A DNA stretch of 64,000 bases from Sanghuangporus weigelae (taxonomy: Eukaryota; Basidiomycota; Agaricomycetes; Hymenochaetales; Hymenochaetaceae): the NCBI GenBank assembly GCA_033182465.1, contig CP137322.1, positions 1,922,001-1,986,000 of the forward strand, read 5' to 3'. This document shows, in pieces, positions 13,493-35,808 of this stretch (position 1 is the first letter of the stretch; each line of letters opens with the position of its first letter). The notes under the pieces are model-generated. The model did not search any database and had not been told where the DNA came from. It saw only the letters and a list, made by a program, of their open reading frames with translations. A program made the translations under genes and the position numbers.

Positions 13493-13499
13493 CTCCCCC

Positions 13500-15539
13500 T
13501 CAATCCGAGCGAAGTCCAAGACGGTTCGCAAAGTGTTTGATCTTGAAGGATGGGAGCGCTTTCGTGAGTGCATCGGCGACCATGTCCCCCGTAGGACAGT
13601 AGACAACTCGGATAGAGCCTCGTTCGACTATCCAATGAATAAAATGATACCTTATATCAATATGTTTTGTTCTTGCATGGTACTGGTGGTCTTTTGTGAG
13701 TGCAATGGCCGATTGGTTGTCCAAAAGGAGTGGGGTCGGTTCGACGAATGGTTCAAAGATCTGTGAGATGAGTTGCCGGAGCCAAAGTGCTTCCTTGGCT
13801 GCATGAGTTGCAGCCACGTACTCGCTTTCAGTGGTTGACAACGAGACTATCTCCTGTTTCTTCGAGTACCAAGAAACGGCCCCTCCTCCTATGAGAAAAG
13901 CATTGCCAGAAATCGCCCTGCGATCTTCTTGCATGCTTCCATCGGCGTCAGAGAAACCCACCAGGCCATTATCTTTGACACTGTTGAATCCATAGTAGAG
14001 TCGAAGGTCCTTAGTTCTCTTGAGGTACTGGAAAACGCGCTGAACGGCTCTCCAGTGAGCCATTCCAGGATTGAGCGAGAAACGAGAGAGAAGAGTCACA
14101 GCGAAGGCAATATCCGGCCTAGTACCCATGGCAGCGTACATAAGGGAGCCCAGGGCCTCCCTGTACGGTATGTGATGCATCTCAGCAATTTCTTGGGCGG
14201 TCTGAGGTGACTGTGATGAGTCGAGCTTGACATTAGGGTCCATTGGCGAGGTAAGATCTCTTGCATTTTCCAGTCCGTAGTGACGAAGTACAGAATTAAT
14301 GTACGTAGTTTGAGAGAGAGAGAGCGTGCGTAGCTCTCGATCTCGCTTGATTTGAATTCCGAGGAGCCAGTGGATGGGGCCAAGGTCAGTGATTTCGACG
14401 TGCTTTGAAAAGTCGGATTTGAATTTGTCGATCAGCGCAGATCGGCTTGCCGCTAAGGTACAATCATCAACAGACACAGCCACAACAATCAGATCCGGCG
14501 GTAAGTGATGGAAATAAATGGCTTGGTCGACGTCACATCGGCTAAAGCCGAGATGATCGACCATGATTGATGTAAATTTTTGATACCATCTTCGTCCTGA
14601 CTGTTTCAGTCCGTACAGCGTCTTCCTCAGCTTGAGCACCTTCTCCCCTGTTCCTATTGGTTTGTACCCTGGAGGATGGTGCATGTACACCACTTCGTTT
14701 GGTTCCAGCTCTCCATTTAGGTAAGCGCTCTTCACATCAATTTGTTCGAGCTCGAGGTCTAACCGTGCTGCTATGGCCAGGATCGTGCGGATGGACGCAA
14801 GCTTTGCAACAGGGGCATACATGTCGAAGTAGTCGATGCCCTCAACCTGACTGAATCCTTGGGCGACTAGTCGGGCCTTCCTGCGGACAATGTTGCCGGC
14901 TGAGTCCCTTTTGACCTTAAATACCCACTTCGAACCGACGATATTGCCCCCTTTAGGGGCTTCTGCCAATTCCCAGGTACCTGCTGCGCGAAGCGCAGTA
15001 AGTTCCTCCTGAATGGCCCTTTCCCATTCGCTCCATTCGGGCAACTTGCGCGCCTCCTGGAGATTCCTCGGCTCGAGTCCCTCTTCCTCGCTCGTAACGC
15101 CTGCAAAGTCGTACTCCTCGTCGTAGTCGTCCCATACTCCCGCAACAATGTCATCTTCTTCCACGACGGTTCTCATGCCCTTCGGAATGATTCCATCCCT
15201 TTTCCACTGCGTCTGTGTGCCTTCTCCAGCGGTGAGTCTCTTTACATATGCTGATGGAGCTTTTGTGCGACCTGACCTCCTCAATGACGCAGAGTTGTCA
15301 GTGATCGTACGAGCAGCTTGCCCTTGTGAGGACATTCCTGTTCCCTGATCTCCAGGACCAGGTGAGTCATCGCGGGGCTCAGGAGACTCAGTCTCAAATG
15401 TTTGGGGCTGGGTTACGACCATGGGAGTGGAAGGTTCTACTGCCGGGGTCGGAGATTTGGAAGTGCTGCGGGACGAAATTTGACTTATAGGGGTAGCTGT
15501 CGGATCGCTCAGTACACTGACATCCATTCCAACATCCAT
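13500..15539 (-). other. Copia reverse transcriptase-RNase H region (fossil)
   Basis: Minus-strand coding remnant with copia-type RT landmarks: WKRDGIIPKG ahead of an acidic linker, VGSKWVFKVKRD, RLVAQGFSQVEGIDYFDMYAPVA split over the usual spacing, DVKSAYLNGELEPNEVVYM, LYGLKQSGRRWYQKF, a VSVDD catalytic loop, then the RNase H part with GFSDADGSMQEDRRAISG and the terminal KHIDIRYHFI block. Part of the copia element described above. Confidence 0.9.
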
Positions 15540-15590
15540 CTCCTCCCCCTCGAGCCGATCAGCATTTGTCCTGGGTGAGAAGTAAACGCT

Positions 15591-17021
15591 TCATTCCACG
15601 CTGATCGATTTTGTTTGGGGCCAATAGATTCTTTGGCCATTTGACAAATCGTCGAATCCAAGCCAACGCCCCTCTTTCGCCCGTAGTGCCAGTTTTGATT
15701 GTGTTGGGTCGTGTACCCAACACTTTGTTCCGAATTCCCTAATCTTCGCTATGTTCAGCTTTTCGTTCGTAAGTGCCTCCCAGGGAGTCTTATCGCCCAG
15801 GGCTTTTGTGGGAAGCCTGTTCTTCAGATAAACGGCATGTCTAGCCGCTTCTGCCCAGAGGAATTTGGGCAGTTGACTAGCATGCAACATTGCTCGGACA
15901 CGTTCAAGTAAGGTTCGGTTCAGTCGCTCCGCGACTCCATTGTGTTCTGGGGTATCATGGACGGTGAGTTTCTGCTGTATTCCTTTATTGTTCATGTAAT
16001 TGACAAATTCATTGCCCGTAAACTCGCCGCCCCTATCGGAGTGGAATACTTGTATCTTGGCCCCATGCTGGGTGTTTACCCAGGCCTCGAACTTCTTGAA
16101 TGCGTCGGGTACGTCCGATTTTCTTCTCAACAAGTATATTTTACTTATTCTCGTTGCATCATCCGTGAAGGAAACAAAGTAATGGCGGCCACCCAGTGAG
16201 CAAGTTGGCGATGGTCCCCATACATCCGAATAGATTTCCGAACCAAAGTCCCTAGCTCTAGGACTCAATTTTGCCTTTGCAATAGGACTACGTGTCGCCT
16301 TGCCATACAAGCAGCTCTCGCAGAAGGCTCCCGAGAGATCGGACGGTACGAGGCGAACACCAGTGACAAGACCTTTCATGACTATTTCCTCAGCCGTGCG
16401 AGGCGAAATGTGGCCCATGCGGGCATGGAGATCCATGGCCGTCATGCCATCCTCAGTAAGATTTATTTTGTCCTTCAGGTCGGTTTCGACTGATTCTGAG
16501 ATGAACTTGTATAGCCCTTTTGGAGAGCGTGCAATTTCACCGATTTGGGCACCAAGAGGGTCGAAAATGCGGCATTTTCCCCCACCAAATCTCATTTCAT
16601 GTCCGGCTTTGTCCAGCTCACCGACAGAAATCAAAGTATATTGGATCTCAGGGGAGTACAGTACGTTCGTGAGTACCATTTGCGATGAGCCATTCGGAAG
16701 TGGCATCACCAAATTTCCCTGTCCAGTCGCATGGAACACATGCCTATTTGCGGCATACAGAGCCCTCGATGGGATGTCCTCGTACTTTGTCAGGTCACCG
16801 CGGTAAGGGGTAATGTGTCTCGTCGATCCTGAATCGAAAATCACTCTTCTTCCTTTGGGTTCGCGATCTGGGTGGATCATGACAACTTTGGCCTCCTCAC
16901 GATCAGACTCATCCTGCTCAGATTCGTCGTCAGAGCACCACAGGGGTTCCTCTTGCAAACCTTCGTCTGGTTCGAAGACATCCGCCAGTAAGTCCCAGTC
17001 ATGCCCTTCGAAGACTCCCAT
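15591..17021 (-). other. Copia protease-integrase region (fossil)
   Basis: Minus-strand remnant with the aspartic protease motif FDSGSTRHIT, the zinc-binding start of integrase (HARMGHISPRTAEE with a later CESCLYGKATRSP), and the integrase core with YSDVWGPSPTCSLGG, FHSDRGGEFTGNEF and HNGVAERLNRTLLE. It belongs to the same copia element. The chromovirus begins about 50 bases beyond its outer end. Confidence 0.9.
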
Positions 17022-17072
17022 ATCTGAAGTTCTTGCTTGACTTTCTCGAGACGCCCCAGTGCTCTCAATAGG

Positions 17073-18584
17073 TGTTAGGAAGTAGGCCCGGGGTTACACC
17101 GGTTTGATCCTTTTGCCTAAGCAGCGGTGTGTTGTGCAGAGGTGATCTTATCTACCCACGTCTGGCTGTACCACGCGGTCCCTTACTAGCCTTCCTAGTC
17201 GCGGTCCGAGTTATGGATGCTTTCAGATACGAGGTAATAGTAAAGCAGATTGGGATTTCCAAGAGGCGTGATAGTACAAAGCACACAGTAATAGCTCGCT
17301 GTAGGGCAAGCTTTACACCAGTGTGTTAAGAGGATCGAAAGATGGGGAAATGAGGGCCTAATCCTACAACTATTTATGCTCCCAGATATTCCATTTTCCG
17401 TCCTATTTCTTACTCATCCTGTCTCCACTTTACTCCACTTTTCTCCACCATTACATCTGTTCCTTTGTCATCCTGCTGCGCTTCGCTCCACTTTGCTCCA
17501 ATCTTTGTAAGGTCGTCTCCACTATGACAGAATTCTTTGGAGTTGCTGACTGAGACAATAGAGGTGGTGCTCCGATATGGAATGCTCCACTGTCAGTACT
17601 CCATAACGATGTCATTGCCGTCATTGAGTGGCATCTTTGCTCTTGGAGCGATGTAGGCTGCTCGGTATGTGATTCTTCGGAATTCATCTCGAGGTCCAGC
17701 GAGGGTAAGCATAACTCGCACGTCAGTGTTAAGGTGTCGGGTCGGTGTAGAGTATGGTCCAAGGCATATCATGAACTGCATAAGCTCTGCTGGTGGGTTC
17801 TGCTGGGTTCTGGTGACTAGCCATGCTTTGCCTTCGTATCGTATATCACGAATGTAGCGCCATATCCTTCGTTGTATAAGGAGTTGTAATTGCTTGGTTT
17901 CCAGGTTCGCATCTCTCGGTAAATAAAGGTTTGCCTGTATCGTAGATGCTGGACATGGTGTGTGCAACTCCGGTCTATACCATCCAATCATTCTCCAAGT
18001 TATCGGGTTCGCGGTTCGAGGGGTCCGAGTTGTGATCGTGAGTTCCTCTCGTTTCTTGGGTACTATTGGGCTTGGTGGATTGGAATGCATTGTATCCTGA
18101 AGGTGTCGCTCGGTTTCGATGTGACAGTCACGCGTACCAACCGTTGCCGTGCATACTAAGTAGTATACTTCATAAAGGACCATGTAAACTCGTGCACAGA
18201 CTTGACAGTGCTGAAATGCCAGTGAGGTCTCCATAAACCTTATTAGCCTTTAGCCTTTTAGCGTTTAGGCTTTAGTAGTTGTGCTTCTGGACTTCTAAGA
18301 AGTTTGATCGCTTCTTTTGATCGAGGTCGCTCTGGTTGCTTGGTCGGCGGCGTTAGAGTGGTAGTCCGCGGTAATAGGCGGTCGGCGGTGTTAGCTGTTA
18401 GCGGGATTACGTATCCGCTTTGGTGCTTCTAGCGCTCGGGTGGTAACGGGTTACTGTTGCCTAGGCCGCTCGATTGCTTGGGCCTTTGATAGCTGGCTTG
18501 GTTACCGGTCGCGTTTGGAAAGCTGATCGTGTAGATCTGTTGATCGTGTCGATCCTGATGCGAGTTTTTGAGCGGATCCTTTCA
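17073..18584 (-). repeat. Chromovirus 3' LTR
   Basis: 1,512 bases, matching 27852-29363 without visible difference. It is unusually long for a fungal chromovirus and contains a 213-codon open frame. Confidence 0.95.
17593..18234 (-). CDS. Open frame inside the chromovirus LTR, unknown protein
   Basis: 213 codons on the element's sense strand, present in both LTRs (also 28372-29013). The N-terminal third is rich in Cys and aromatic residues (HCQVC, VCTATVG), the middle has a Pro/Thr-rich stretch, and the remainder looks like a small globular domain (WRMIGWYRPELH, RRIWRYIRDIRYEGKAWLV). No family is recognised. Because LTR repeats are homogenised at each insertion, its openness in this young element may reflect chance or selection. 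Confidence 0.4.
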   Translation of the reverse strand: METSLAFQHCQVCARVYMVLYEVYYLVCTATVGTRDCHIETERHLQDTMHSNPPSPIVPKKREELTITTRTPRTANPITWRMIGWYRPELHTPCPASTIQANLYLPRDANLETKQLQLLIQRRIWRYIRDIRYEGKAWLVTRTQQNPPAELMQFMICLGPYSTPTRHLNTDVRVMLTLAGPRDEFRRITYRAAYIAPRAKMPLNDGNDIVMEY

Positions 18585-18708
18585 CTACACCCCCCCTAAG
18601 ATGAACTTTCGGAGAAATGTTCATCCTAATCCGTGAGAAAGCTCGGATAAAGGGTCGCTTAGTGATGGTTGCTTTTTGCTATCAAACCATCATCATCTCT
18701 GCTCCAAA

Positions 18709-19024
18709 ATGTCGAAAGTCGCCGCTGCTGTTACTGTTTTTGTCGTTATTGTCGCGATTTTCGGCATAAATCATTGGATTTTGGAGCGTAAGAGGCGTGC
18801 TCAGGTAAGTGATGCATGCTCTGTGCCGTTTCGAGTTGTTAATCATCCTCTAGGAGGCTGACTTCGAAATGCAATCGTTCCAGCGCGATGTTACTACTGT
18901 CGCGCTTCGAGTTCACCTCGCGCTCGGTTATGACGTTGAGGATATCGATCCAGTCGTCGAAAATGCAGGTATTGCTTCGCAGGAACGTCGTGAAAAGGGT
19001 GTCTGGGAAGACATTGACTTGTAA
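18709..19024 (+). other. Small antisense open frame with a hydrophobic segment inside the chromovirus
   Basis: On the strand opposite to gag-pol, between the polypurine tract and the frame after pol. The frame opens with ATG at 18709 and quickly gives a stretch such as VAAAVTVFVVIVAIFGI followed by RKRR, the pattern of a signal anchor with a cytosolic basic flank. GTAAGT at 18805 and CTCTAG at 18847-18853 are intron-like signals, after which a mostly acidic open stretch runs to a stop at 19022-19024. No family is recognised. It could be a cargo gene, an antisense regulator or chance. Confidence 0.3.
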
Positions 19025-19564
19025 AGGGTGGTGGGAAGGGATATGAATATGAAATGTGCATCATGTAAAGAATATGACGCAATTGAAAGTGATAAGAAAG
19101 AAATCATAAAGTCGTTAATGAATAAGTTTTATACCAATTTGGGAGTGAAGTTCCAGGTGTTTACCTACGGCTCTTCAACCCCCAAATGGAGTTTTTCGAA
19201 GAAAGAGTGTAATTGGAGTGCCTTTCAGCGTGAAGGCACATCCTAGCATAATGCAAGGGAGTGACTTCACGTAACCTTTTTGGCTTCTCCGTTGCATAGA
19301 GGATAATAAAAGGTAGGCATAATCTGCCAATTTGGCGCCGGCACAATGACGCAATATACAAAATGTCTAGGCCCTTGTAGGTTCTTTGACACTTCTGCAT
19401 AGTGCTTCATTTGTGCTGGTTGGCCGAATAAGCGTGAAATAAAGAGGTGCATAAAGCATAATTTGGTCGGATGTGACCATAAATATCATAAGGTAAGAAT
19501 GAAATGCATAATTGACCATGTCGGGTCACGATATGGGAAAGGGGTTGCATAAAAGAAGAGTTGT

Positions 19565-20641
19565 TTACAAGTCTTCGGATTCTTCAGCCTCAGGTGTAGT
19601 CTGGGCCGAGTTCGCTGGGGTATATAGTTCCCTGCTTTCACCTTCTTCACTTGACTCTGTATCGTCGGAGTGTATGTACATGTCCTCCTGTTCCGACATA
19701 GTAAGCATCTCGTCCGGCTGGTAGAGTTCGTTCGGGTACTGGTAGACTGAGATCATCAGATCTTCCAGCAAGGGGTGTCGTGTAGCCTGTAGTTTTTCTC
19801 TGGCTTCTTCCTCTCGGTTGTTGAGTTCCATAAGGTAATGAGGGTCGTAGTTAACCTCTTTGCCTTCGACTACGTGGTGCTCGATGTTGTCGAGTGGTAC
19901 CTCGTCCGTAGTAGAGTTCCTCGCTTCAATAACCGTTCGGTATCTCGTTCCTTCGTAATACTTCGTCATGTTGAGTACCGTCATGAACTGCATGGTGTGG
20001 GATGCATAGAAGCCCGTCTGGTCGGCTATGTATATAATGTACTTCATCGCATCGATGCTCATCGGATGATAGTGACTCCATCGCATCATTCGGTTAAGAA
20101 TTGCGGTAGTCATGTCTCGTCGGTAGGCGCAAATTTGAATTGCCGAATGATAGATGCCCATGATGTTCTTGTATGTCGTTTCGTGCCTAAAGTCGATCTT
20201 GCCTCGATGTAATGCTTGTGTTTCGAGTTCGATCGCGTAGGTTAGAAATGCATCATCATTGAGTCGGCGTAATGCTGCGTCTCGAGGGTTACTGAGTTTG
20301 AATAACCACTCGTCTGAGTGATTCGCCATCATAAGGTGGGGTATTTCGTCTCGGTTGTGGTGGATTGCGTTCCACTTGTCGAATAGATCATCGAAGTACT
20401 TCCCTGGGCATAGGGGTACAATCTCATCTTCGTAGTTCTCTTCGTTGAATCGATTGCACAGCTGTGGCCATTGATAACGTTCGGTCGGTGGCCTGAGTGT
20501 AAATGTCCATTCTGGTGCATCTTCTGGTTGACAGAATGCATGTAGCTCGTCGAAAATAGGCATAGCTGAGTAGTGGTTCGTCTGCAGTGAAGTAGAGCTG
20601 TTGAGATTCGAGTTGTTGTTCCTTAGCTCGAAGTTCTCCAT
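19565..20641 (-). CDS. Chromovirus frame downstream of pol, unknown protein
   Basis: 358 codons on the element's sense strand after pol, in the place where envelope genes sit in some retroelements. It has no signal peptide and no membrane segment, so it does not look like an envelope protein. Seen: an Asn/Ser-rich start, a soluble helical middle with many Tyr, Met and His residues, and an acidic, Ser/Glu-rich tail. No family is recognised. Confidence 0.6.
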   Translation of the reverse strand: MENFELRNNNSNLNSSTSLQTNHYSAMPIFDELHAFCQPEDAPEWTFTLRPPTERYQWPQLCNRFNEENYEDEIVPLCPGKYFDDLFDKWNAIHHNRDEIPHLMMANHSDEWLFKLSNPRDAALRRLNDDAFLTYAIELETQALHRGKIDFRHETTYKNIMGIYHSAIQICAYRRDMTTAILNRMMRWSHYHPMSIDAMKYIIYIADQTGFYASHTMQFMTVLNMTKYYEGTRYRTVIEARNSTTDEVPLDNIEHHVVEGKEVNYDPHYLMELNNREEEAREKLQATRHPLLEDLMISVYQYPNELYQPDEMLTMSEQEDMYIHSDDTESSEEGESRELYTPANSAQTTPEAEESEDL

Positions 20642-20816
20642 GTTTTATACCATCTTGTTGGTATGTCGGCGATGTCTTGCCTAATTCTTCTATCTCTGCT
20701 CTCGCTTTGGTGTGCCACATTGATGTCATCGCTTGGTAAGGTCGTTGGGGACCTTACTCATCGTCTCTATTGTGGATCCATAAGCGGCTCCATCGGGTGG
20801 AGTGCATGTGATGCAA

Positions 20817-23800
20817 CTATTGCCTCATTCGTTTTCGTGCGGCGATCCATTGGTTAAGGTTCGGTGGCTGGATTGCCTGAGGATACTTTTTATGGAATGC
20901 TTCGATCATTTGATAGGAGTTCTTGAGGTTGTCAAGTGGCTCCCATGTTCGCTCCTGGTATCCTTTCCATTGGATAAGGTATTGGACCTTGCTCCGATGA
21001 CGTCTTGTGTTATGAATCGTCTCCACTTCGTACTCTGCTTCTCCCTCCACTTCAATAGGTGGTGGTTCATCCAAAGTGGGTCTTCCAGGGTATTCCTTTC
21101 GTTTGTAAGGCCTGAGAAGGCTCGCATGAAACACTGGGTGGATCGGAAGGGTTTCGGGTAAGCGTAATCTGAATGACACTTGTCCGACTGCCTTCTCGAC
21201 TTTATAAGGCCCTGCCCATTTCATTGCAAGTTTCTTCGTTGGTTCCAATCGACTGAGATTCCTCATGTCTAGTAACACTTCGTCTCCTGGCTTGTACTCT
21301 GGCAGTTTGCCTCGATGCAGGTCTGCATAAAGCTTCATTGCCTCATTCGCTTGCCTAATCGAATTATAGGCTTCTTGCTGTACTTGTCGAAGCTCCTCTA
21401 GGTGATTTATTGCTTCTGGGACGTTTGAATCACCGGTCTCCGCAACGTCCAGGTGAGGATGCCATCCATACAGTGTATAGAATGGTGACTGATGTGTAGT
21501 ACTGTGCTTCCTGTTGTTGTAGGCGAATTCTGCTATATCGATGTACTCTGCCCAATCTGTTTGTCGGTAGGACACATAGCAGCGTAAGTACTGTTCAAGC
21601 TCTTGATTTAGTCGCTCGGTTTGACCATCGGTTTGTGGATGATACGCTGTACTAGTTTTCCAATCGACATCGATGAGTCTGCAGAACTCCTTGAGGAATT
21701 GCGCGGTGAAGTTGCTACCTCGGTCGGAGATTACTCGTTTAGGGGCCCCGTAGTATTTGAAGACATGTTGGCGGAACAAACGTGCCAACTGCTTAGCATT
21801 GGGTATTCCTTGGCAAGGAATGAACTTCCCCATTTTAGTGAGTTTGTCCACTATAACGAGTATCGCACTGTAGCCTTCATTGCTGACTGGTAAGTCGGTA
21901 ATCAGGTCACAGGTTATGGTTTCCCATGGTTGATGTGGTGCCTCCAACGGTTGGAGCGGCGGATTTCGAAACTGTCGAATCGGTTTTGCACGCTGACATA
22001 TGTCGCAGGTTGCGGTATATGCTCGGATCATTTCTTCCATCTTCGGCCAATAGTATGATCGCTTTACAAGCTCTATGGTCTTTTCTGCTCCTGGGTGGCC
22101 TGCAAGTTTGTGATCATGGCGCCTTCGGATTAGCAACGCTCGTAGGTTGGCGGACGGCGGGATATATAATGCATTGGTTACGTAGTGCAAGCCGTTCCTG
22201 TAACTGTAGCCGTTGCTCTGCTTGATCGCCTGAATTTCCTTCTTAGCCTCCTCGGTATTGTAGTTCCTCTTGATCGTTCGGATAATAGGATCAGAGATAG
22301 TGACCATTTCAGTTTCTAGCTTGTATAGACCGTTGATCTCTGTGCGTCGCAATGTTTGTTGCTTGATCGTATCAGGGGGTAACAAGGTAACTCCTAAGTT
22401 GTCCTTGTCCTCTGGCATATAGTCGGATCGTCGTGATAGCTCGTCAGCTTGGTTCTTCTTGCCTGGCCAATGGAGAATCTTGAAGTTATATCGTGATAAC
22501 TCTAGTGCCCATCTTGCTTGACGTCTCGATAGATTCTGAGCTGTCATGAAGTATCGGAGGTTTGCATGATCGCTTCGGATTGTTACTGGTTCTTTGGTTC
22601 CCTCCAATAGGTGTCTCCAATGCTTGAGTGCTTCCATGATTGCTAGCATCTCTTTGTCATGCGTCGGATAGTTTCGTTGGGTGTTCGTTAGAGTTTTCGA
22701 CATGAAACCTAAAGGTCTCAGTTCTCCTTGGTTGTCTTCTTGTTGTAAGACTGCACCAATCGCTACATCGGATGCATCGGTTTCCAATGTATATGGTTTG
22801 TCTGGCTTTGGCATTGCCAATGCGACTTCCGTTTCGAATGCCTTCTTGATACTTTCGAATGCCTTATCTTGTGCCTCTGCCCATATGAACTTGCGATCCT
22901 TTTTGATAAGGTCGCCAATAGGTGCGAATGTATCGGCATAGTTCCTGATGAATCTTCGGTAGAAGTTACAAAATCCTTGGAACTTTCGAACTTGTCGTTT
23001 CGTCTTTGGTACTGGCCATTCGTGAATAGCTTTGAGCTTATAAGGATCCATCTGGATGCCTTTCGTTCCTACTACAAATCCCAAGTAGTCGAGCTGGGTT
23101 TGGAGGAAGTGACATTTCTCAATTTTGAGGTAAATGTCGAGCTCTCGGCATTTCTGTAGAATTGCTCTGAGGAGTTTCCAATGTTCCTCTTCAGTTTGTG
23201 CTTGACCAATAAGGTCGTCCAAATAGTTGAGTGCTTCTTCTGTCCTGAGCCAATATTCGAAGTTGTCATTCATGAATCGTTGGAATACTGCAGGTGAGTT
23301 CTTCATTCCAAACATCATGACCTTTGGCTTGTAGACTGCATTGCCAACTCGGAATGCTGCCTTCCACTCGTCTCCTTCTCGGATTCGCAGGTTGTTGTAA
23401 CCTGATCGCATGTCGAGTGTAAAGAAGAATTTTCCTTTCTCCAGTTTCTCTGGGAGAACACTCATGATCGGTATCGGGTATGGGTCTGATACTGTCGTGT
23501 CGTTGATGTCTCGGTAATCGGTTACTGCTCGTGCTCCTCCGTCTTTCTTTCCTACAAAGAAGACTGGTGCTGCTACCGGACATGGTTCATGTGGTTGAAC
23601 CTTTTCAATCCATCCTTTGTCAAGTAACTCTTTGACATAAGCATCGAGTGCTGCCTGCTCTTCTCGTGTGAGCTTGATAATAGGCCTTGGTTTCGGTAAT
23701 GGTACTCCTTCTTTGAGGTTAATCGCCATATCCCATTTCGTATGCTTGGGTAACCTTCTTGACTTGTCAGGATCAAAGACATCTGCGTAGTCTTCTATTT

Positions 23801-25295
23801 CCTTTGGTAGGAGTTTTCGCCAATCTCGTTTCTGTGTTCCTAGTAGTCCTTCTGCAGCTGCCTTTTGTTGAGAATACTGCTGGGATACTGAACTCGCTTT
23901 GTTCAGTGGCTGTGAGACTTGGTTCTGCTGCCTTGGTGACCAATTTCGATTGATGTCTAGCTCTAGCTTTGCAGCGAGCTCTTCCTTTCTGGTAAGGGTA
24001 GTTGGTTGGTTGGTCGTCCTAAGACTTTCAATGTCTTCTGGCTCTATGTCGTGCATAGGAGTGTCTTCTGTTGTCTCCTGCTCGTCTTGCATCTCGATAT
24101 CGCTTTCGTTGTCTGCCCATCTTGTACGCTTCGGTGTGGGACTCGCTCCTCGCATTAACGATGCTGTTCTCGGTCGTATAATGCCTGCCACTGGCTTCTC
24201 TGGATACCGTGTCTTTCGTGGTCGTATCCTGTACTTCATGCCCGGGTTTTCTTCTGGTAATGGCCAGAGTTCTTCATCTTCCGGCATGTTTTGTCTCAGT
24301 GGGTGTATCTTCTGTGGCGGTTGTTTCTTCCAACGTTTCGGAGAGTCATTTATTTCCTCCTGTTCGTCTAGGCTATGCTTGCCTGTTACATCTTGTGTTT
24401 CACCTTCGGATGTCTGGTACAGTTGCCGTGCTGGGATCATCCGTCTCGGTATGTGCCTTGGTCGTCGTTGCACTATACTCGTTCCTTGTGGTGCCTGTTT
24501 CTTCCATCGCTTGGGAGTGTAGTTTATTTCCTCCTCATCTCGATGATGCTTGTTTGCCGTTTCCTGTTGTGGCTGTTTCGTTGCAGAGTCTGGTATATTT
24601 TCCGTGCTCGGACTCTTCACTTCTGGCGTCTGTTTTGCCTGTTCCAGTCTTGGTGTTGCTGGTCTGGTTTCCGGCTTCGCTTGTGGCTTCGTTTCGTGAG
24701 AGTGTCCGTTGTTGTCTCTCCTTGGCGCAAATATTATTCCTGGTGCTCCAGAGTGTCGATAGTTGTCTCTGTCCTGAGCCTGTTGCTTCGTGTTATGCCT
24801 AGGTCTTGTCTTGTCAGGTTTGCCTTTCGTTTGCCGTTTCCGTTTGCGCTTCCTGTGCCTTCGTTTCTTGGTAGCTCGTATGACGTTGAGCTCGAATGGT
24901 ATCGAATTACCATTCCGATTCCATACTTGATTCTTCCAATCAATTTCGGGATTGACTTTGGCCAAATAGTCAATTCCTAGGATCACTTGATCCTGTCCTG
25001 TGGTTGCTACTGCCAACGTTTGTGGCTGCGGTTTAGGTCCATCAAAAATTAATGTGTAGACCTCGTGCGTGATTGCTCCTCCTTGGTTGGGACTTCCATC
25101 CGCATTATTCAAAGGTCGAGGGTGATCAAGCCTCTTTTTGAATAGGCTGTAGTGTCGTACCAAGTTGGGGTGTATCGTGCTGCATGTAGCTCCGGAATCG
25201 ATTAACGCTTTGACTGCTAGGGTCTTTGTTCCAACCTTCACTCGAATAGGTAATCGGGGATGCAATGCTTGTATTGGCAATCGCTTATTGTACAT
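20817..25295 (-). CDS. Chromovirus pol polyprotein
   Basis: 1,492 codons from the first Met; the frame is open further upstream and overlaps gag in another frame, the arrangement this family handles by recoding. Domains in order: aspartic protease (ALIDSGATCSTIH) near residues 30-45; a long Gln/Arg/Pro-rich linker of about 300 residues; reverse transcriptase with FFVGKKDGGARAVTDYRDIN and the YLDD catalytic loop; RNase H (YTLETDASDVAIGAVLQQ); integrase zinc finger (HPGAEKTIEL with CDICQRAKP) and DDE core (ITCDLITDLP, VISDRGSNFTAQF, STAYHPQTDGQTERLNQELE); and a C-terminal chromodomain (YLIQWKGYQERTWEPLDNL), which in the family targets integration to modified chromatin. It looks whole. Confidence 0.95.
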   Translation of the reverse strand: MYNKRLPIQALHPRLPIRVKVGTKTLAVKALIDSGATCSTIHPNLVRHYSLFKKRLDHPRPLNNADGSPNQGGAITHEVYTLIFDGPKPQPQTLAVATTGQDQVILGIDYLAKVNPEIDWKNQVWNRNGNSIPFELNVIRATKKRRHRKRKRKRQTKGKPDKTRPRHNTKQQAQDRDNYRHSGAPGIIFAPRRDNNGHSHETKPQAKPETRPATPRLEQAKQTPEVKSPSTENIPDSATKQPQQETANKHHRDEEEINYTPKRWKKQAPQGTSIVQRRPRHIPRRMIPARQLYQTSEGETQDVTGKHSLDEQEEINDSPKRWKKQPPQKIHPLRQNMPEDEELWPLPEENPGMKYRIRPRKTRYPEKPVAGIIRPRTASLMRGASPTPKRTRWADNESDIEMQDEQETTEDTPMHDIEPEDIESLRTTNQPTTLTRKEELAAKLELDINRNWSPRQQNQVSQPLNKASSVSQQYSQQKAAAEGLLGTQKRDWRKLLPKEIEDYADVFDPDKSRRLPKHTKWDMAINLKEGVPLPKPRPIIKLTREEQAALDAYVKELLDKGWIEKVQPHEPCPVAAPVFFVGKKDGGARAVTDYRDINDTTVSDPYPIPIMSVLPEKLEKGKFFFTLDMRSGYNNLRIREGDEWKAAFRVGNAVYKPKVMMFGMKNSPAVFQRFMNDNFEYWLRTEEALNYLDDLIGQAQTEEEHWKLLRAILQKCRELDIYLKIEKCHFLQTQLDYLGFVVGTKGIQMDPYKLKAIHEWPVPKTKRQVRKFQGFCNFYRRFIRNYADTFAPIGDLIKKDRKFIWAEAQDKAFESIKKAFETEVALAMPKPDKPYTLETDASDVAIGAVLQQEDNQGELRPLGFMSKTLTNTQRNYPTHDKEMLAIMEALKHWRHLLEGTKEPVTIRSDHANLRYFMTAQNLSRRQARWALELSRYNFKILHWPGKKNQADELSRRSDYMPEDKDNLGVTLLPPDTIKQQTLRRTEINGLYKLETEMVTISDPIIRTIKRNYNTEEAKKEIQAIKQSNGYSYRNGLHYVTNALYIPPSANLRALLIRRRHDHKLAGHPGAEKTIELVKRSYYWPKMEEMIRAYTATCDICQRAKPIRQFRNPPLQPLEAPHQPWETITCDLITDLPVSNEGYSAILVIVDKLTKMGKFIPCQGIPNAKQLARLFRQHVFKYYGAPKRVISDRGSNFTAQFLKEFCRLIDVDWKTSTAYHPQTDGQTERLNQELEQYLRCYVSYRQTDWAEYIDIAEFAYNNRKHSTTHQSPFYTLYGWHPHLDVAETGDSNVPEAINHLEELRQVQQEAYNSIRQANEAMKLYADLHRGKLPEYKPGDEVLLDMRNLSRLEPTKKLAMKWAGPYKVEKAVGQVSFRLRLPETLPIHPVFHASLLRPYKRKEYPGRPTLDEPPPIEVEGEAEYEVETIHNTRRHRSKVQYLIQWKGYQERTWEPLDNLKNSYQMIEAFHKKYPQAIQPPNLNQWIAARKRMRQ

Positions 25296-25399
25296 CGCTT
25301 CACTGGGGTTGAACCCAGGAGGTTTGAAACACTGGTTGTTGAAACCTTTCTCGTCACCCTTGTTACACTCACATCGCGCAGTCTCGTTCGATGGAGGTC

Positions 25400-26488
25400 T
25401 TAATCTTTTCCCTGTTGCTCTTTACTTGCTAGGGATTTGCGAATGTTGTTTCGGTATTCTTCGTCATGCTTGCAAGTCCATCCTGCTGATTCATCGCCTT
25501 TAGCCCATGCTACATGATCGTAGTGGACTGGCCTTCGGCAGTGCGGATCGGGACATGTTTCCTTGAAATCGATTGTTCGTGTTGTCATCGTCCTCCGTTT
25601 TACACCATTAGTCTTCTTCGGCCGCTTAGAGGAAGAACCCTTTTGCTTCCTTGGTGCCTTGCACTCCTTTGCGTAATGTCCTGACTTTTCACAGTTGTAG
25701 CATTTGCCTCCCTTCTTCGGCAAGCCTCGGAGTGCATCTACATCCATGGCGTCTGGATCTCGTTTCGTTGTTTGTACTGGTGGTCGGAAAGATGACTGTC
25801 CATTCGATTTGAATCTTGGGGTATATGTTTGACTACCCATGAGCCTTTGCCTGGCATCAGAGTTTGCTAGGTTGCTTGTCCATTCCATCCATGCATCGAG
25901 GTCGTTCTTCTCGAAAGCGTCGGGTTGTACAGATTCGACTCGTCGTTTGACCCACATGTCTAGTCCTTTGACATAGATGTACTTGAGCATCTGCTTATCC
26001 ATCGTGTCTGGTGCTCGTGCTTTGAGTCGTCGGAATTCGTCGTTGTACGCCCTAATGCTTGCTCCTTTCTGCTGGATGCATAGTAGTTGGAATAGGGCTT
26101 CCTGTTCTCCAATGATCGGATGTCCTGCTCGGATCCTCATCCAGTTCAGCATGTCCTTGAGTGATGCGAACATTCCATTTGTTGCAGCGATAATCGCAGG
26201 TACCGGTTTCAGTTTCCCATTGGCATCGAATGATGTTAGGGTATTCTTCTCTGCAAACCAATCGTAGCTATCGCCTTCGAGTGCTGCGAATAGGCTCTTT
26301 GCTATCTCCTCCTCATCCTTGACTCCATGCTGTGCCAGCTTTGAGATACATCGACTAATCCACAGATCAATGTCTTCGCTTCGCTTGCCATAGTACTTCG
26401 GAAGCTTGATGCTGTGTTTAGAGAGTTGTGTCTGAAGAGTCTGTAGTTGCTGCTCCAGTGCTTGCACCTTCTGGTCGGTTGTCGACAT
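25400..26488 (-). CDS. Chromovirus gag
   Basis: 362 codons. Short N-terminal coiled coil (VQALEQQLQTLQTQL), a capsid-like helical region with the conserved ISKLAQ and DWFAEKN blocks, and a CCHC zinc knuckle (CYNCEKSGHYAKEC) near residue 265, followed by a basic tail and a second Cys/His cluster. This is the virus-like particle protein of the element. Its start lies 71 bases inside the end of the frame upstream, in another reading frame. Confidence 0.9.
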   Translation of the reverse strand: MSTTDQKVQALEQQLQTLQTQLSKHSIKLPKYYGKRSEDIDLWISRCISKLAQHGVKDEEEIAKSLFAALEGDSYDWFAEKNTLTSFDANGKLKPVPAIIAATNGMFASLKDMLNWMRIRAGHPIIGEQEALFQLLCIQQKGASIRAYNDEFRRLKARAPDTMDKQMLKYIYVKGLDMWVKRRVESVQPDAFEKNDLDAWMEWTSNLANSDARQRLMGSQTYTPRFKSNGQSSFRPPVQTTKRDPDAMDVDALRGLPKKGGKCYNCEKSGHYAKECKAPRKQKGSSSKRPKKTNGVKRRTMTTRTIDFKETCPDPHCRRPVHYDHVAWAKGDESAGWTCKHDEEYRNNIRKSLASKEQQGKD

Positions 26489-27452
26489 GATCGTATGTGC
26501 TTATGGGCACTGCTGGTGGTGAATAGGATGGTGGTGGTGGATTCTCTGGCGCTTGGGTTGCTACTGAACCACTTGCTGGTACTGCAGGTACTGTTGGTAC
26601 TTGGATGATAACCGTTCGAGGTGGGGTTCTGAGTAAGAATGGCCTTCGTGATGCTTCTTCGTCTGAGGACACTGATTCGTCAGAACTCTGTTCCTGTTGG
26701 GCTCTCTCTCTTGGTAGAAAGTATTCCCAGCGTTGTGCTGCCTGAGCTACTTCTCGAATTCGTTGAGCGTGTTCGAGTATGTTCCTTGAGGTAGTTTCGG
26801 TTGTCTGTACCGATGTGAGTATAGCTGCGTAGGTGCGTTGACTCGACTCGATTGTTTGTCCTAGTTGGAGTAGGGCTTCTCGCAGGTTATGGATGTCTTG
26901 AACAATCCTTGGTTGATCTAGAGCTGTCCTGTTAAGCTCTCCGATTCTCGTCTCGATTGTCTGTAGTTGCTGTTCCTGAGCAGTAATCCTGTTTCGGATA
27001 GCGTTGAGCTCTCGGTCAAGTACTCCGTTTCCGTCTATGACCCGTTGATTGAGTGCCCCTGCTGCTCGATCCAATTCCAGAGTATATCTCTCTAGAGCTG
27101 CTACCTGTGCTCCAATTCTTCGAGTAGTTGTTTCGAGTGCTTCGAATCGATCTCCTACTGCTGTCGCGTATGCTCCGGTTGGTAGACTGTTTGACTGCCC
27201 CGTGTTTGCAGTTCGTTCTTCCAGTCTTTCAACCCTTTCTTGTAGCCTTCTGATCACTGGTGGATACAATATGCTGTGGTTCGTTGTCGCGTATAGTATG
27301 TCGTGATCGCTTTCCAGACTACGTAGCCTGTTGGTGATATGTTGAACTCGTTCGTCGAGGGATCTAGGTATGAACCTCGTTTGATTATCGTTCGCCCGTT
27401 CGTTCGTTCGATGACCGTTACTTCTGTTGTTGGCGTTTCCTGATCGGTTCAT
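26418..27452 (-). CDS. Chromovirus frame upstream of gag: coiled-coil protein with a PPxY motif
   Basis: 344 codons. Seen: a polar Asn/Arg-rich start, then long stretches of heptad-like sequence (RLQERVERLEERT; RNRITAQEQQLQTIETRIGE; SRNILEHAQRIREVAQAAQ) that predict an extended coiled coil, then an acidic Ser patch (SSDESVSSDEEAS) and a Pro-rich tail with NPPPPSYSPP. PPxY motifs bind WW domains of NEDD4-type ubiquitin ligases and serve as late domains in retroviral Gag. The first codon overlaps the stop of the preceding frame as ATGA. No family is recognised for the whole protein. Confidence 0.65.
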   Translation of the reverse strand: MNRSGNANNRSNGHRTNERANDNQTRFIPRSLDERVQHITNRLRSLESDHDILYATTNHSILYPPVIRRLQERVERLEERTANTGQSNSLPTGAYATAVGDRFEALETTTRRIGAQVAALERYTLELDRAAGALNQRVIDGNGVLDRELNAIRNRITAQEQQLQTIETRIGELNRTALDQPRIVQDIHNLREALLQLGQTIESSQRTYAAILTSVQTTETTSRNILEHAQRIREVAQAAQRWEYFLPRERAQQEQSSDESVSSDEEASRRPFLLRTPPRTVIIQVPTVPAVPASGSVATQAPENPPPPSYSPPAVPISTYDHVDNRPEGASTGAATTDSSDTTL

Positions 27453-27790
27453 GAACTTCGTTTCTCGCCTGATGCTTCAGGGTTATTGTTCCTTGGTGCT
27501 GTTAACCAAGTAGTTCCTTTCTCGTCGAATGTAGCAATAGTGGAAGGGACTGCTGCTACTTTCGTGGTTGTTGTTTGCGTGCTCCCAACTGCAGGGCTAC
27601 CAGATGCCTTTGCTATTAGGTACACTTCGTCGTTGTAGGGGTTATGATAGTAGATATGTGATTTAAGTGAATCGGGTTTGTCGTTCTCCAGGATGTGCAC
27701 TTGTCCTGAGGATTCGATATGGGTACTAGTCTCGAAACTAGTGACGTCGATAGGGACTTGAGGTCGACGGTCCTCGCCTCGATAAAACAC
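27449..27790 (-). CDS. First frame of the chromovirus, unknown small protein
   Basis: 113 codons, the first open frame after the 5' LTR, ending in the ATGA overlap with the coiled-coil frame. It has a Ser/Thr-rich polar composition with a central YYHNPYNDEVYLIAKASG block. No family is recognised. Confidence 0.45.
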   Translation of the reverse strand: MFYRGEDRRPQVPIDVTSFETSTHIESSGQVHILENDKPDSLKSHIYYHNPYNDEVYLIAKASGSPAVGSTQTTTTKVAAVPSTIATFDEKGTTWLTAPRNNNPEASGEKRSS

Positions 27791-27851
27791 TAGCCAAGAA
27801 CCTTGCCCGTGAGAGGTGGTGGTAAAACTAGCGAGTGATCTTTCGATCCAA

Positions 27852-29363
27852 TGTTAGGAAGTAGGCCCGGGGTTACACCGGTTTGATCCTTTTGCCTAAG
27901 CAGCGGTGTGTTGTGCAGAGGTGATCTTATCTACCCACGTCTGGCTGTACCACGCGGTCCCTTACTAGCCTTCCTAGTCGCGGTCCGAGTTATGGATGCT
28001 TTCAGATACGAGGTAATAGTAAAGCAGATTGGGATTTCCAAGAGGCGTGATAGTACAAAGCACACAGTAATAGCTCGCTGTAGGGCAAGCTTTACACCAG
28101 TGTGTTAAGAGGATCGAAAGATGGGGAAATGAGGGCCTAATCCTACAACTATTTATGCTCCCAGATATTCCATTTTCCGTCCTATTTCTTACTCATCCTG
28201 TCTCCACTTTACTCCACTTTTCTCCACCATTACATCTGTTCCTTTGTCATCCTGCTGCGCTTCGCTCCACTTTGCTCCAATCTTTGTAAGGTCGTCTCCA
28301 CTATGACAGAATTCTTTGGAGTTGCTGACTGAGACAATAGAGGTGGTGCTCCGATATGGAATGCTCCACTGTCAGTACTCCATAACGATGTCATTGCCGT
28401 CATTGAGTGGCATCTTTGCTCTTGGAGCGATGTAGGCTGCTCGGTATGTGATTCTTCGGAATTCATCTCGAGGTCCAGCGAGGGTAAGCATAACTCGCAC
28501 GTCAGTGTTAAGGTGTCGGGTCGGTGTAGAGTATGGTCCAAGGCATATCATGAACTGCATAAGCTCTGCTGGTGGGTTCTGCTGGGTTCTGGTGACTAGC
28601 CATGCTTTGCCTTCGTATCGTATATCACGAATGTAGCGCCATATCCTTCGTTGTATAAGGAGTTGTAATTGCTTGGTTTCCAGGTTCGCATCTCTCGGTA
28701 AATAAAGGTTTGCCTGTATCGTAGATGCTGGACATGGTGTGTGCAACTCCGGTCTATACCATCCAATCATTCTCCAAGTTATCGGGTTCGCGGTTCGAGG
28801 GGTCCGAGTTGTGATCGTGAGTTCCTCTCGTTTCTTGGGTACTATTGGGCTTGGTGGATTGGAATGCATTGTATCCTGAAGGTGTCGCTCGGTTTCGATG
28901 TGACAGTCACGCGTACCAACCGTTGCCGTGCATACTAAGTAGTATACTTCATAAAGGACCATGTAAACTCGTGCACAGACTTGACAGTGCTGAAATGCCA
29001 GTGAGGTCTCCATAAACCTTATTAGCCTTTAGCCTTTTAGCGTTTAGGCTTTAGTAGTTGTGCTTCTGGACTTCTAAGAAGTTTGATCGCTTCTTTTGAT
29101 CGAGGTCGCTCTGGTTGCTTGGTCGGCGGCGTTAGAGTGGTAGTCCGCGGTAATAGGCGGTCGGCGGTGTTAGCTGTTAGCGGGATTACGTATCCGCTTT
29201 GGTGCTTCTAGCGCTCGGGTGGTAACGGGTTACTGTTGCCTAGGCCGCTCGATTGCTTGGGCCTTTGATAGCTGGCTTGGTTACCGGTCGCGTTTGGAAA
29301 GCTGATCGTGTAGATCTGTTGATCGTGTCGATCCTGATGCGAGTTTTTGAGCGGATCCTTTCA
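27852..29363 (-). repeat. Chromovirus 5' LTR
   Basis: 1,512 bases, matching 17073-18584 without visible difference. The first element base inside (27851) begins the presumed primer site, TTGGATCGAAAG on the minus strand. Confidence 0.95.
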
Positions 29364-29368
29364 ATAGG

Positions 29369-29850
29369 CGAGTTGTCTTCCTCATCGTCAGACCACTCCC
29401 AGGCGGCATTGGCACAGTCCCATACGCCATCTGAGTCCGAGTCGTACGCGACATTCGCAGAATCTTTCGGCTTGAATTGCTGGCCACCAACTTGCTTCGA
29501 AAAGCCACCCTTGTTCTTGGGGCACTTGCGTCTGAAGTGACCGGCCTGGCCGCACGTCCAACAGAGCTTTGGCTCTTGAGGTGTGTACTTAACATTCCGT
29601 TTGGGCGATTTGAAGTGGTTGACAGCCAGAGCTTCATCTCTGGGCTGTTTTCCCGACTTAACTGATCTTTCGCCCCTCTTGTTCCGCTTCTGACGCTCTG
29701 CCTCGTCTACAATGATGTGGATGAGGACTTCGGGATCAACATACTTCGCGCTCTCGAGTTGATCTGGAGTAGGCGGAGTTTGGCTGAGAAGCAACAAGTT
29801 ACGAGATGCAATTTCGGCGGAAGTTAGTTGGGAGGATGCTGTAGCGCACT
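29369..29850 (-). other. Copia gag, nucleocapsid part (fossil)
   Basis: Minus-strand remnant between the two insertions. It carries the CCHC zinc knuckle CWTCGQAGHFRRKC, a basic stretch before it, and an acidic DSDSDGVWD tract after it. It belongs to the gag of the copia element at 12944-32791. Confidence 0.8.
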
Positions 29851-31603
29851 GGCTCCTCCTGTGCCAGTACACTCATACTATGGCTCCCTCTTACTGCAGA
29901 TACCATATCCCAGCACTGCCGACACCTGAGAGTGTGAGGGCATACTCCTATTGCACTCGGGACATCATTTGAGCACGTATCCATTGATTCCAGCACACGT
30001 ACTGTACTGCGGCGCCCTCCTATGACCCAAATCGATCCGCCGATGGCTCCCCGACACTCAGACAGGTCCGCCGACAGCTCCTACCCAGCACCAGGCACTA
30101 TAGGACACATCCCTCAGTGACTACGTGCCGCCGATCTTATGATTTACCATACGTACAGCCGTGCGGCGACTCTGGATGCCTCCGAGTCGGCCCCCCTTGG
30201 CGCCGATCAATGCGGCGGACACTCAGACATCCTCAGGTACCCTCGCCGACGCCTCCTACAGCTTACCAAGCAGTCCCCCATTGTCTAGGGAGCTATATAT
30301 TGTCATATATGCTTACATGCCTCATTACGATGTATCTGCCACCAGTCCGGCAGTCCCCCACAGCACTGCCGCTCCGGCCACTCATATTAGTCACTAGGGA
30401 TCGCCCACACTCTGTATTGAGTGCCGCCGATGCATCGGACACCTCAGGGACATCGGCTGATGCGCCCTTTGTCTCATATACGCGATATCAGCCTCTAATC
30501 ATCGGTTCCGATGTTTCCCGACTTCCCCCCGACGCGGCGGCCCCCATTAGACCATGTATGGAAGGTAGGCATGTGGTACATCGGCGTGCCAAGCCACCGA
30601 CTCGCGCCGCCAAGCCCAACTCCACCGGCGCCCGTGTTATTGCAGATACTCAATATTTCATGTGATTGGATGCCCCCCTCACGTTGCCGCTCTCAGATTT
30701 CACCTGGGCGCTCCGGCAGCGGCCCTTGGCGACTCAGATGACTCAGGAGATGTTGTCAGACAGTAGGATGTGTCGGCGACAGCAGTAGAGTATATATAGA
30801 GCTTATACTAGCTTGTAGACGAAAAGGATTCCAAGCCTAGCAAGGATTCCAAGAGCATGTACCAGACCGAGCGCCAGAGTTCGAGATATCCCTCACTCTG
30901 AGTCTCCCCTCATGTACTGAGCCTCCCCCTTGACTATATACTATCCTTGACATCTCCTCTTGTTTGACTCCACATTCTACTTGCCTTCGCCGCCTCCGGT
31001 ACGCCTCTGCCGCTCTGACGTTCAGTGATCCGGCGCCCCTCTATTTGACGTCGGCGACCCTTCGGCGACCCAGGCTTCTCATCAGACTCCCCTTCGGCGT
31101 CCTTTCCAGCCTTTCACTCCAGTTTATCCCATATATTGATCTTATACGGTCTTTTCCTTTCATCTATCGCGTTTACGCTACTGCGGCGGATTCCTGCGGC
31201 CTCCCCCTCAGTCCGGCACCCCTCTATTCGACGTCGGCGGCCATCCGACGACCCAGGCATCCTATCAGACGACCCAGCGGCACCTTCTCCAGCCACTCAC
31301 TCCATTTTATCCTTTATATTCATCTTATACACTTCATACCTTCCTGTGGCCGAGTTTATACCACGTCGGCAGCCTCTTGTGATCCCCCCTTTTGAGCGGC
31401 GGCCCTGTTATCCTATTCCCTTTATCCAGCGGCATCCTTAGACCCATCCATTACATCTCCGACGGTTCCTGGCACCTGCCGGGTAGTAGGTCTTTGAGAG
31501 TCTGATAGCGTCGGCATCCCATTTTTGGAGGTTCCTTCATACATTCAGCACCCTTAGTAGGACGGACATCTGTAGCACCTTCAGATAAGACACCGCCGAC
31601 CGA
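29838..31603. mobile_element. Unidentified insertion of about 1.75 kb within copia gag, with internal tandem repeat
   Basis: The stretch between the two gag remnants is unlike either retroelement: rich in CGGCG/GCCGCC and TATATA-type words, with no long coding frame and no recognised domain. Two diverged copies of a unit of about 190 bases lie head to tail (about 31,023-31,212 and 31,213-31,400); both hold GGC(G/A)CCCCTCTATT, GACGTCGGCG and a Pro/Ser-coding-like stretch. I cannot define exact ends, inverted repeats or a target duplication. It could be a non-autonomous DNA element, a solo LTR of another family, or captured host DNA. Confidence 0.5.
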
Positions 31604-32170
31604 CAACGCGAAGTTCGCCAAAAAACGAGGTAAGCAGGAAATAATCGTGCTTCGATAGTCCGAGTCTGATATCGTAACTCCAGACTGCGCAAGCGTCTCG
31701 CGCTTCGTGCACAAGTCATTCAAGTATTCACGAACATCCGCCCCTTCGGGCATCTTGGACTCTAGAAACTCCTCTCGAAGGGAAGTCTGCACGTACACGG
31801 ACTTCTGGGTGAACTCGTGGACAACTGCGGACCATTTCTCTGCGCACGTATTGTAACGAGTCAAGCTGACCAGAACGGAGTCCGGAACTCTCTGAGAGAG
31901 TAAGTACAACGACACATCTTCGTTCTTTGTCCACTCCTCTAACCGATCTTGAAAGTCAAGATTGGGATTAGGATCCCCAGCGGCTATCGCAGCCGCTACT
32001 ACTGTGTCCGGTGCCAACTCAGGGCGAACCTTCGTGCCATCGAAGTGCCCCCATTTTCCCTTCGCCTTCGCGGCTAGCTGGAAACGCAACGAATACAATA
32101 GCCAATTCTTCCCACTGGTCTCGAGAGTGGGAACCGAGGTCGGTAGAGTGTCGTGTGATTGGGTGGACAT
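31600..32170 (-). other. Copia gag, N-terminal part (fossil)
   Basis: Minus-strand remnant starting MSTQSHDTLPTSVPTLE, with the GKNWLLYSLRFQLAAKAKGKW block and the LREEFLESKMPEGADVREYL stretch typical of UBN2/DUF4219-type copia gag. It lies directly after the 5' LTR. Confidence 0.8.
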
Positions 32171-32231
32171 TGAGATACTCGCTTTACAGTTTCAGGGGAA
32201 ACTTTTCGATTTGAACGCAGCTAGGTAGCAA

Positions 32232-35800: not shown

Positions 35801-35808
35801 CTTATATA
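35801..35808 (-). promoter_or_regulatory. TATA box of transporter 4
   Basis: TATATAAG on the minus strand, about 170 bases before the start codon at 35633; conserved with 12351-12358. Confidence 0.55.

Follow-up and report, generated by a model that had tools for sequence, protein, structure and literature searches.

A chromovirus of Sanghuangporus weigelae with three accessory genes under selection, including one within the long terminal repeats, and a start-codon layout suggestive of leaky scanning

The stretch analysed here, referred to as the window, comprises 64,000 nucleotides of the fungus Sanghuangporus weigelae (GenBank assembly GCA_033182465.1, contig CP137322.1, positions 1,922,001 to 1,986,000 of the forward strand), and all positions given below are those of the window. 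A long terminal repeat (LTR) retrotransposon occupies positions 17073-29363 on the minus strand. Its measured length of 12,291 bp agrees with the coordinates and the size of about 12.3 kb given in an earlier note on this DNA, and its LTRs, described there as 1.5 kb long, are two identical copies of 1,512 bp. The gag and pol genes and the additional open reading frames (ORFs) of 113, 344, 358 and 213 codons are also present at the relative places reported in that note. Three of the additional frames, namely ORF344 (upstream of gag), ORF358 (downstream of pol) and ORF213 (within the LTR), behave as genes under selection, and the start codons of the element are arranged in an unusual and statistically clear layout. 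The element is probably an autonomous, recently amplified chromovirus of the self-priming type that carries these three accessory genes. Its main features are listed in the order of the putative transcript.

27852-29363, minus strand: 5' LTR, 1,512 bp
28372-29013, minus strand: copy of ORF213 in the U3 region of the 5' LTR
27453-28122, minus strand: ATG-free R-U5 and leader, from the predicted transcript start to the ORF344 ATG
27449-27790, minus strand: 113-codon frame with no ATG, whose stop overlaps the ORF344 start as ATGA; probably leader
26418-27452, minus strand: ORF344 before gag, coiled-coil-like, with the first ATG of the putative transcript
25400-26488, minus strand: gag, whose ATG is the second of the putative transcript; its product has a CCHC zinc knuckle
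25406-25412, minus strand: slippery heptamer G GGA AAA, candidate site of a -1 frameshift from gag to pol
20817-25421, minus strand: pol frame with protease-like, reverse transcriptase (RT), RNase H, integrase and chromodomain parts; first ATG at 25295
19565-20641, minus strand: ORF358 after pol; annotated homologues start at its M27 (window 20563)
17593-18234, minus strand: ORF213 in the U3 region of the 3' LTR, an accessory gene within the LTR
17073-18584, minus strand: 3' LTR, 1,512 bp, TG..CA, identical to 27852-29363

The genome assembly searched for copies comprises 33.87 Mb. It contains 113 matches to ORF344 (103 stop-free) and 111 whole or partial matches to ORF358 (104 stop-free); these are counts of matches, not of full-length elements. 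For ORF213, the best 150 of 430 candidates are all about 100% identical and stop-free, which implies nothing for the remainder. The alignment of the 5' part contains 31 rows with 26 distinct sequences; besides the window and L039, which is the window's own locus, it includes 29 further copies. The sets L039-L068 and L009-L038 are the top protein matches to ORF344 and ORF358, respectively. One diverged relative of ORF358 (50% identity) was found, on contig C6, while no diverged relative of ORF344 occurs among the genome matches. The C6 relative keeps parts of pol, ORF358 and the LTRs; an LTR end joins directly near the start of pol, the leader, ORF344 and gag being gone by one deletion. Its R-U5 (L069/L070) is 91.5-92% identical to window 27852-28122, compared with about 78% in longer LTR alignments, reflecting either unexpectedly strong non-coding conservation or recent exchange. 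Elsewhere in the genome, LTR matches form a tandem array (G000:C8:358389-363901), in which three full matches alternate with 480-bp partial ones at a period of 2,006 bp.

Selection is visible between copies for all three frames and, for ORF358 and ORF213, also against the C6 relative. Variable sites at codon positions 1/2/3 between copies number 9/2/39 in ORF344 and 3/0/37 in ORF358, both inflated by the picking of top matches, and 3/3/23 in the 5' LTR part of ORF213; the small part of ORF213 covered by the 3' set (1/0/2) has too few to judge. The corresponding counts are 8/4/45 in gag, 1/2/7 in the N-terminus of pol and 3/2/22 in its C-terminus. A less biased sample for ORF344 was provided by seven young loci that were not chosen by a high ORF344 score, of which four (L003, L005, L006 and L008) came from eight fetched by LTR DNA, two copies being also in the top-ranked set, and three (L072-L074) were low-ranked, young and fetched by place. 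In these loci, 24 of 36 unique changes in ORF344 are synonymous (p = 2e-5; positions 6/4/26), and the same changes read in the other two frames show no synonymous excess. Synonymous changes in ORF344 of the decayed copies number 39 of 66 (L071) and 20 of 36 (L075). Against the C6 relative, the ratio of non-synonymous to synonymous substitution rates (dN/dS) is 0.25 for ORF358 (345 codons, 3 stops), 0.25 for ORF213 (207 codons, 4 stops) and 0.21 for the C-terminal part of ORF213 compared with the other C6 LTR; two parts of pol give 0.31 and 0.19. In the remaining five frames across ORF213, the ratio lies between 0.39 and 1.75.

ORF358 and ORF213 also have annotated homologues. Their closest named matches are S. 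weigelae proteins (99% and 98% identity, respectively), after which come proteins of S. sanghuang, S. vaninii and S. baumii. Five further homologues of ORF358 at 50-72% identity are found in other Sanghuangporus, the one at 72% covering 40% of the length, and all six annotated proteins begin at M27. Full-length homologues of ORF213 (212-213 aa) in S. baumii and S. vaninii are 70-73% identical. These relatives stand in the databases as Sanghuangporus 'hypothetical protein', and in the searches made here no relatives of the three accessory genes emerged outside this genus. No known protein family was recognized for them, as the earlier note had observed: nothing usable emerged from Pfam, NCBIfam, PDB-sequence or Foldseek searches. 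ORF344 looks like a soluble, coiled-coil-like protein (maximum hydropathy 1.25; N-terminus MNRSG), with only weak coiled-coil-type matches, below the Pfam cut-off and far below the NCBIfam cut-off. The ORF358 protein is acidic (isoelectric point, pI, 4.7) and soluble-looking, with no Pfam match at E <= 1 and nothing below E 0.1 in PDB by sequence; its AlphaFold2 model, with a mean predicted local distance difference test score (pLDDT) of 38, was not used. The ORF213 protein is basic, and its residues C10, C13, C37, C94 and C157 are invariant in five sequences; a role as a nucleic-acid-binding regulator is a guess. It has no Pfam match at E <= 1, its profile matches no PDB sequence, and its low-confidence AlphaFold2 model (pLDDT 50.8; predicted template modelling score, pTM, 0.52) found nothing in PDB or BFVD with Foldseek at E <= 0.001. 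Five homologues, likewise compared with Pfam, had no match better than E 0.09.

The second unusual property of the element is its start-codon layout. On the coding strand, the last of the ATGs that precede the predicted transcript start is at 28173; the next two are those of ORF344 (27452) and gag (26488), after which ATGs are frequent. In the about 1.6 kb between the predicted transcript start and the gag ATG, the ORF344 ATG is the sole one. From 28130, 8 nt before that start, to the gag ATG, one ATG is present where 13.3 are expected (minimum 5 in 2000 dinucleotide shuffles), with none in 28130-27452 (shuffle mean 6.1) and none between the ORF344 and gag ATGs (6.7). Synonymous-codon shuffles of ORF344, in which protein and codons are kept, contain 5.9 ATGs on average and reached zero in 0 of 5000 cases; gag, pol, ORF358 and ORF213 have ATG counts above their own synonymous-shuffle means. 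Among the aligned rows, the stretch before ORF344 is ATG-free in 31 of 31 and that between the ORF344 and gag ATGs in 30 of 31, while the net gain in decayed copy L071 is 9 ATGs against 3.8 expected. The context of the ORF344 ATG is weak (TTC ATG A, with T at -3, in 31/31 rows), and that of the gag ATG reads as the better one (A at -3 in 31/31 rows, the sequence being ATC ATG T in 30 of them and ACC ATG T in the remaining row). The element thus has the layout of leaky scanning, that is, a long upstream frame that is AUG-free inside, a weak first AUG and a better second one. In addition, a donor-like CTA/GTAAGG lies in the leader at 27965, the same in 31/31 rows.

The core of the element is that of a chromovirus. 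In the 1492-aa pol frame, RVT_1 (582-741), RT_RNaseH (831-936), Integrase_H2C2 (1049-1105), rve (1121-1220) and Chromo (1422-1470) all score above the Pfam cut-offs, the protease match being slightly under its cut-off, and the order RT, RNase H, integrase with a C-terminal chromodomain is the one that defines chromoviruses. The ends are of the same type, with TG..CA LTRs and the short target duplication ATAGG on both sides. The gag and pol open frames share 22 nt; pol is in the -1 frame, and the heptamer lies inside this overlap. A scan of 17000-29500 against Rfam returned no family at gathering score. Judged on a 200-aa piece, and among the best 150 of 177 candidates, the nearest other RT families in the genome have identities of about 51% and 45%. 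The 51% family, a second gypsy-type one (e.g. C1:3366241 and C2:3103420), has 17 matches among these best 150, 10 of which lie within a 1,798-codon open frame; a third gypsy-type family stands at about 45% identity and less. The remaining features of the element are the following.

29364-29368 and 17068-17072: right and left copies of the target site duplication ATAGG, read directly
28148-28160, minus strand: TATA-like box CATAAATAG, about 30 nt upstream of the predicted start 28122
27838-27849, minus strand: primer-binding site (PBS), complementary to the first 12 nt of the putative transcript (28122-28111)
20566-20583, minus strand: candidate splice acceptors just 5' of ORF358 M27 (AG at 20583-20582 and 20567-20566), by motif only
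18585-18598, minus strand: polypurine-like tract adjoining the 3' LTR, read directly

The PBS lies two bases from the 5' LTR, and the PBS, its complement, the frameshift heptamer and the TATA box are identical in 31/31 rows. Tf1/sushi-type elements are self-primed from the 5' end of their own RNA, which is cleaved to yield the primer. As in these elements, the sequence beside the 5' LTR matches the putative RNA 5' end at 28122 over 12 nt, and by this PBS the element resembles them; it would be of the self-priming type, and it differs from them in having extra genes and in that gag is not its first frame.

The element is inserted within a Ty1/copia ORF, and the flanks, when joined, give a 661-codon open stretch, compared with 210 codons in that frame with the element in place. 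The flanking frames carry Ty1/copia-type RT (RVT_2), integrase and zinc-knuckle domains. The host of this nest is a young Ty1/copia element (12944-17067 and 29364-32791), whose 549-bp repeats (12944-13492 and about 32243-32791) are 99.8% identical. Around the nest lies a duplication (9922-12723 and about 33352-36174, 87.5% identical) with a Sugar_tr/major facilitator superfamily transporter frame, the two transporter frames (10554-11444 and 34010-34900) being 96% identical; two further Sugar_tr frames are at 4763-5725 and 8341-9303.

The earlier note held that random openness of so many long frames is unlikely. Since the LTRs are identical and the element is therefore young, openness alone is weak evidence, and chance openings are indeed the best, though unproved, reading for two of the frames. 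The 113-codon frame begins with GTG and contains no ATG, and its variable sites (6/4/7, p = 0.28) give no clear coding signal. Stop codons interrupt 14 of the 112 genome matches to the surrounding open stretch of 133 codons; those placed, in four of the 31 rows, lie at codon 4 of the frame (three rows) or upstream of the GTG (one row), and row L059 has lost 61 nt of the frame; the stops are weak evidence against coding, as a non-AUG start may lie deeper within the frame. The small antisense frame, taken as the 124-codon one at 19838-20212, shares with the 113-codon frame the lack of a Pfam match at E <= 1, and since pol, too, is faced by antisense frames, of 197-207 codons, the length of such a frame says little by itself. 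Neither frame is thus upheld as a gene. For ORF344, ORF358 and ORF213, in contrast, the bias by codon position supports the note, and chance is scarcely credible: it would have to account for third-position bias, for dN/dS of about 0.25 and cross-species homologues in ORF213 and ORF358, and for a synonymous excess of ORF344, seen in copies chosen on grounds other than a high ORF344 score, that vanishes in the other two frames. The proposed chromovirus with accessory genes therefore stands with three such genes (344, 358 and 213 codons) and without the 113-codon and antisense frames. The dN/dS comparison suggested in the note, run for ORF358 and ORF213 against the C6 relative, is not neutral in either case; neutral decay, which the note had named together with loss of the frames in relatives as speaking against genes, is seen neither there nor in the synonymous excess of ORF344, and although ORF344 is missing from the C6 relative, the leader and gag are missing with it. 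ORF358 occupies the place of env after pol and could on that ground be an envelope-like gene, making the element errantivirus-like and able to exit the cell. However, the maximum 19-residue Kyte-Doolittle mean of its protein is 0.42, bearing out the note's remark that the post-pol frame is not envelope-like, and with no membrane segment, an acidic pI and no family match, an envelope was rejected as very improbable.

In the model proposed for the expression of the element, the transcript start, leaky scanning, frameshifting, splicing and the biochemical roles of the products are all read from sequence. A capped RNA would start near 28122 and be scanned from its 5' end, the weak-context first AUG yielding the coiled-coil-like ORF344 protein. 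Ribosomes passing this AUG would meet the next one only at gag, 964 nt further on; because no AUG lies between the two, gag would be made by leaky scanning from the same RNA. Gag-Pol would arise through the -1 frameshift at GGGAAAA at the end of gag. ORF358 and ORF213 are probably expressed from spliced or otherwise shorter RNAs, in which the ATG-free leader would be joined just before their start codons; the leader donor at 27965 and the acceptor-like sites before ORF358 M27 make splicing plausible. ORF213, lying in U3, would be contained in genomic RNA only at the 3' end, in the 3' LTR part, and an own LTR promoter could serve it as an alternative to a spliced RNA.

Other routes to gag have to be weighed against leaky scanning. 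The ORF344 and gag frames overlap, gag being in +1 relative to ORF344, and a coiled coil would suit the N-terminus of Gag, so that ORF344 could be the N-terminal part of a longer Gag made by a +1 frameshift in the overlap 26500-26418. We consider this quite unlikely: frameshifting offers no reason why 963 nt of ORF344 should be cleared of out-of-frame ATGs, gag possesses an ATG of its own at which the A at -3 is conserved, and no Ty1- or Ty3-type +1 site was seen in the overlap by eye. A spliced gag RNA, or termination and reinitiation after ORF344, with the ATG-free stretch arising from, for example, RNA packaging or base composition, is likewise unlikely. Splice-like motifs are present in the leader, and the gag ATG, 70 nt before the ORF344 stop, would be usable for reinitiation. 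Yet bypassing ORF344 by splicing would not require an ATG-free ORF344, and the ATG deficit remains in dinucleotide and synonymous shuffles, which allow for composition; moreover, decayed L071 gained ATGs faster than expected, though L075 did not.

Several observations weigh against the reading by leaky scanning and selected accessory genes. The transcript start at 28122 is predicted from the primer complement and from the distance to the TATA-like box. In decayed copy L075, the gain of 2 ATGs is close to the 1.7 expected, only 1 of 93 new changes in young copies creates an ATG against 4.5 expected (p = 0.06), which is suggestive only, and the R-U5 of the C6 relative holds three ATGs in one LTR and one in the other. 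The lack of ATGs in the 350 nt at the start of the LTR, ahead of ORF213, is not significant (shuffle mean 0.28), RNA structure downstream of the frameshift site is not unusual (z = 0.03), and no match to the branch point CTRAY occurs in 20540-20816 before ORF358. As for selection, no homologue of ORF344 was found in the protein database, so that the evidence for its selection comes from the copies of a single genome; the picking of top matches that inflates the synonymous excess of ORF344 and ORF358 between copies was made in sets that each include the window's own copy. The C6 relative is the only readable diverged one and is decayed, with 3-12 stops per compared part that were skipped, its dS for ORF358 (1.44) is near saturation, and the lowish 0.39 among the other frames over ORF213 belongs to an antisense frame. 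The full interpretation, in which badnavirus-style AUG-starved leaky scanning evolved independently and is combined with a selected U3 gene and a complex-retrovirus-like accessory set with relatives only in Sanghuangporus, is therefore advanced tentatively, as a possibility that we slightly doubt.

Among known systems, the chromovirus core itself is ordinary, and the accessory genes and the start-codon layout are unusual. Retroviruses have genes in U3, such as nef and the sag gene of mouse mammary tumour virus, with which ORF213 shares its location; it differs from them in that no sequence or fold match was found (the latter with a low-confidence model) and in its fungal host. Among the open-access papers listed by the searches, none describes, in its title or the start of its abstract, a fungal element whose LTR encloses an entire selected ORF or an LTR retrotransposon with AUG-free leaky scanning. 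To our knowledge, polycistronic leaky scanning in reverse-transcribing elements is known mainly from plant pararetroviruses. According to the part of a source that deals with them, rice tungro bacilliform virus (RTBV) makes ORF III by leaky scanning past ORFs I and II, which are AUG-free inside over 900 nt and have a moderate ORF II AUG, makes its P4 protein from a spliced RNA, and stop and start codons are fused between some pararetrovirus frames (PMC5902531). Within the scope of that description, the element shares with RTBV and badnaviruses one or more AUG-free upstream frames, a first AUG of moderate or weak strength, a distance of about 900 nt to the following gene and short frame overlaps, the ATGA of the 113-codon stop and ORF344 start resembling fused codons; those viruses are plant pararetroviruses with a shunt leader, and RTBV ORF I is AUU-started (PMC5902531), whereas here the non-AUG frame, of 113 codons in a fungal LTR element, has no clear coding signal. 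Membership in Caulimoviridae, which have no integrase and no LTRs, was rejected, as integrase, chromodomain and LTRs are present.

Frames upstream of gag have been described in other LTR retrotransposons. The MDG1 group, e.g. Drosophila 412, has short pre-gag frames with low non-synonymous/synonymous rates, and the relevant section of the source defines a FAST-like pre-gag protein as short, with a transmembrane segment and an N-myristoylation motif (PMC11952523). The position before gag is shared, but sORF2 of 412 is, as described there, a short membrane fusogen-like protein (PMC11952523), and ORF344 was rejected as a protein of this kind, its 344 aa, MNRSG start and hydropathy not fitting. 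The rice element Retrosat2, a plant LTR element, has an extra frame, ORF0, upstream of gag-pol in a place like that of ORF344; the likeness is by description and not by sequence, and the excerpt in question describes neither leaky scanning nor an LTR gene (PMC3485330). CERV of C. elegans Cer1 is, in a partial account, an accessory protein from a spliced RNA with exons 1-3 in the gag frame (PMC10309623); a spliced origin of an LTR-retrotransposon accessory protein, as proposed here for the element, is the shared trait, and the two are likened by description only (PMC10309623). In the portions of a fungal survey drawn on here, elements range from about 4.4 to >13 kb, the majority have one or two ORFs, and an additional ORF, its function unknown, appears in a figure legend (PMC2864245). 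Basidiomycete chromoviruses as covered there share with the element gag, the order protease-RT-RNase H-integrase-chromodomain and LTRs, from which the element departs by three extra selected frames, one of them within the LTR (PMC2864245).

If the proposed reading is true, polycistronic leaky scanning would have arisen in a fungal LTR retrotransposon as well, and LTRs could hold constrained protein genes, making every LTR, solo LTRs included, a potential gene. The ATG-count signature needs DNA only and, with more than 100 genome matches and relatives across species, is testable in public fungal genomes. For annotation, such LTRs would be a warning, as they contain real genes that belong to the element and not to the host.

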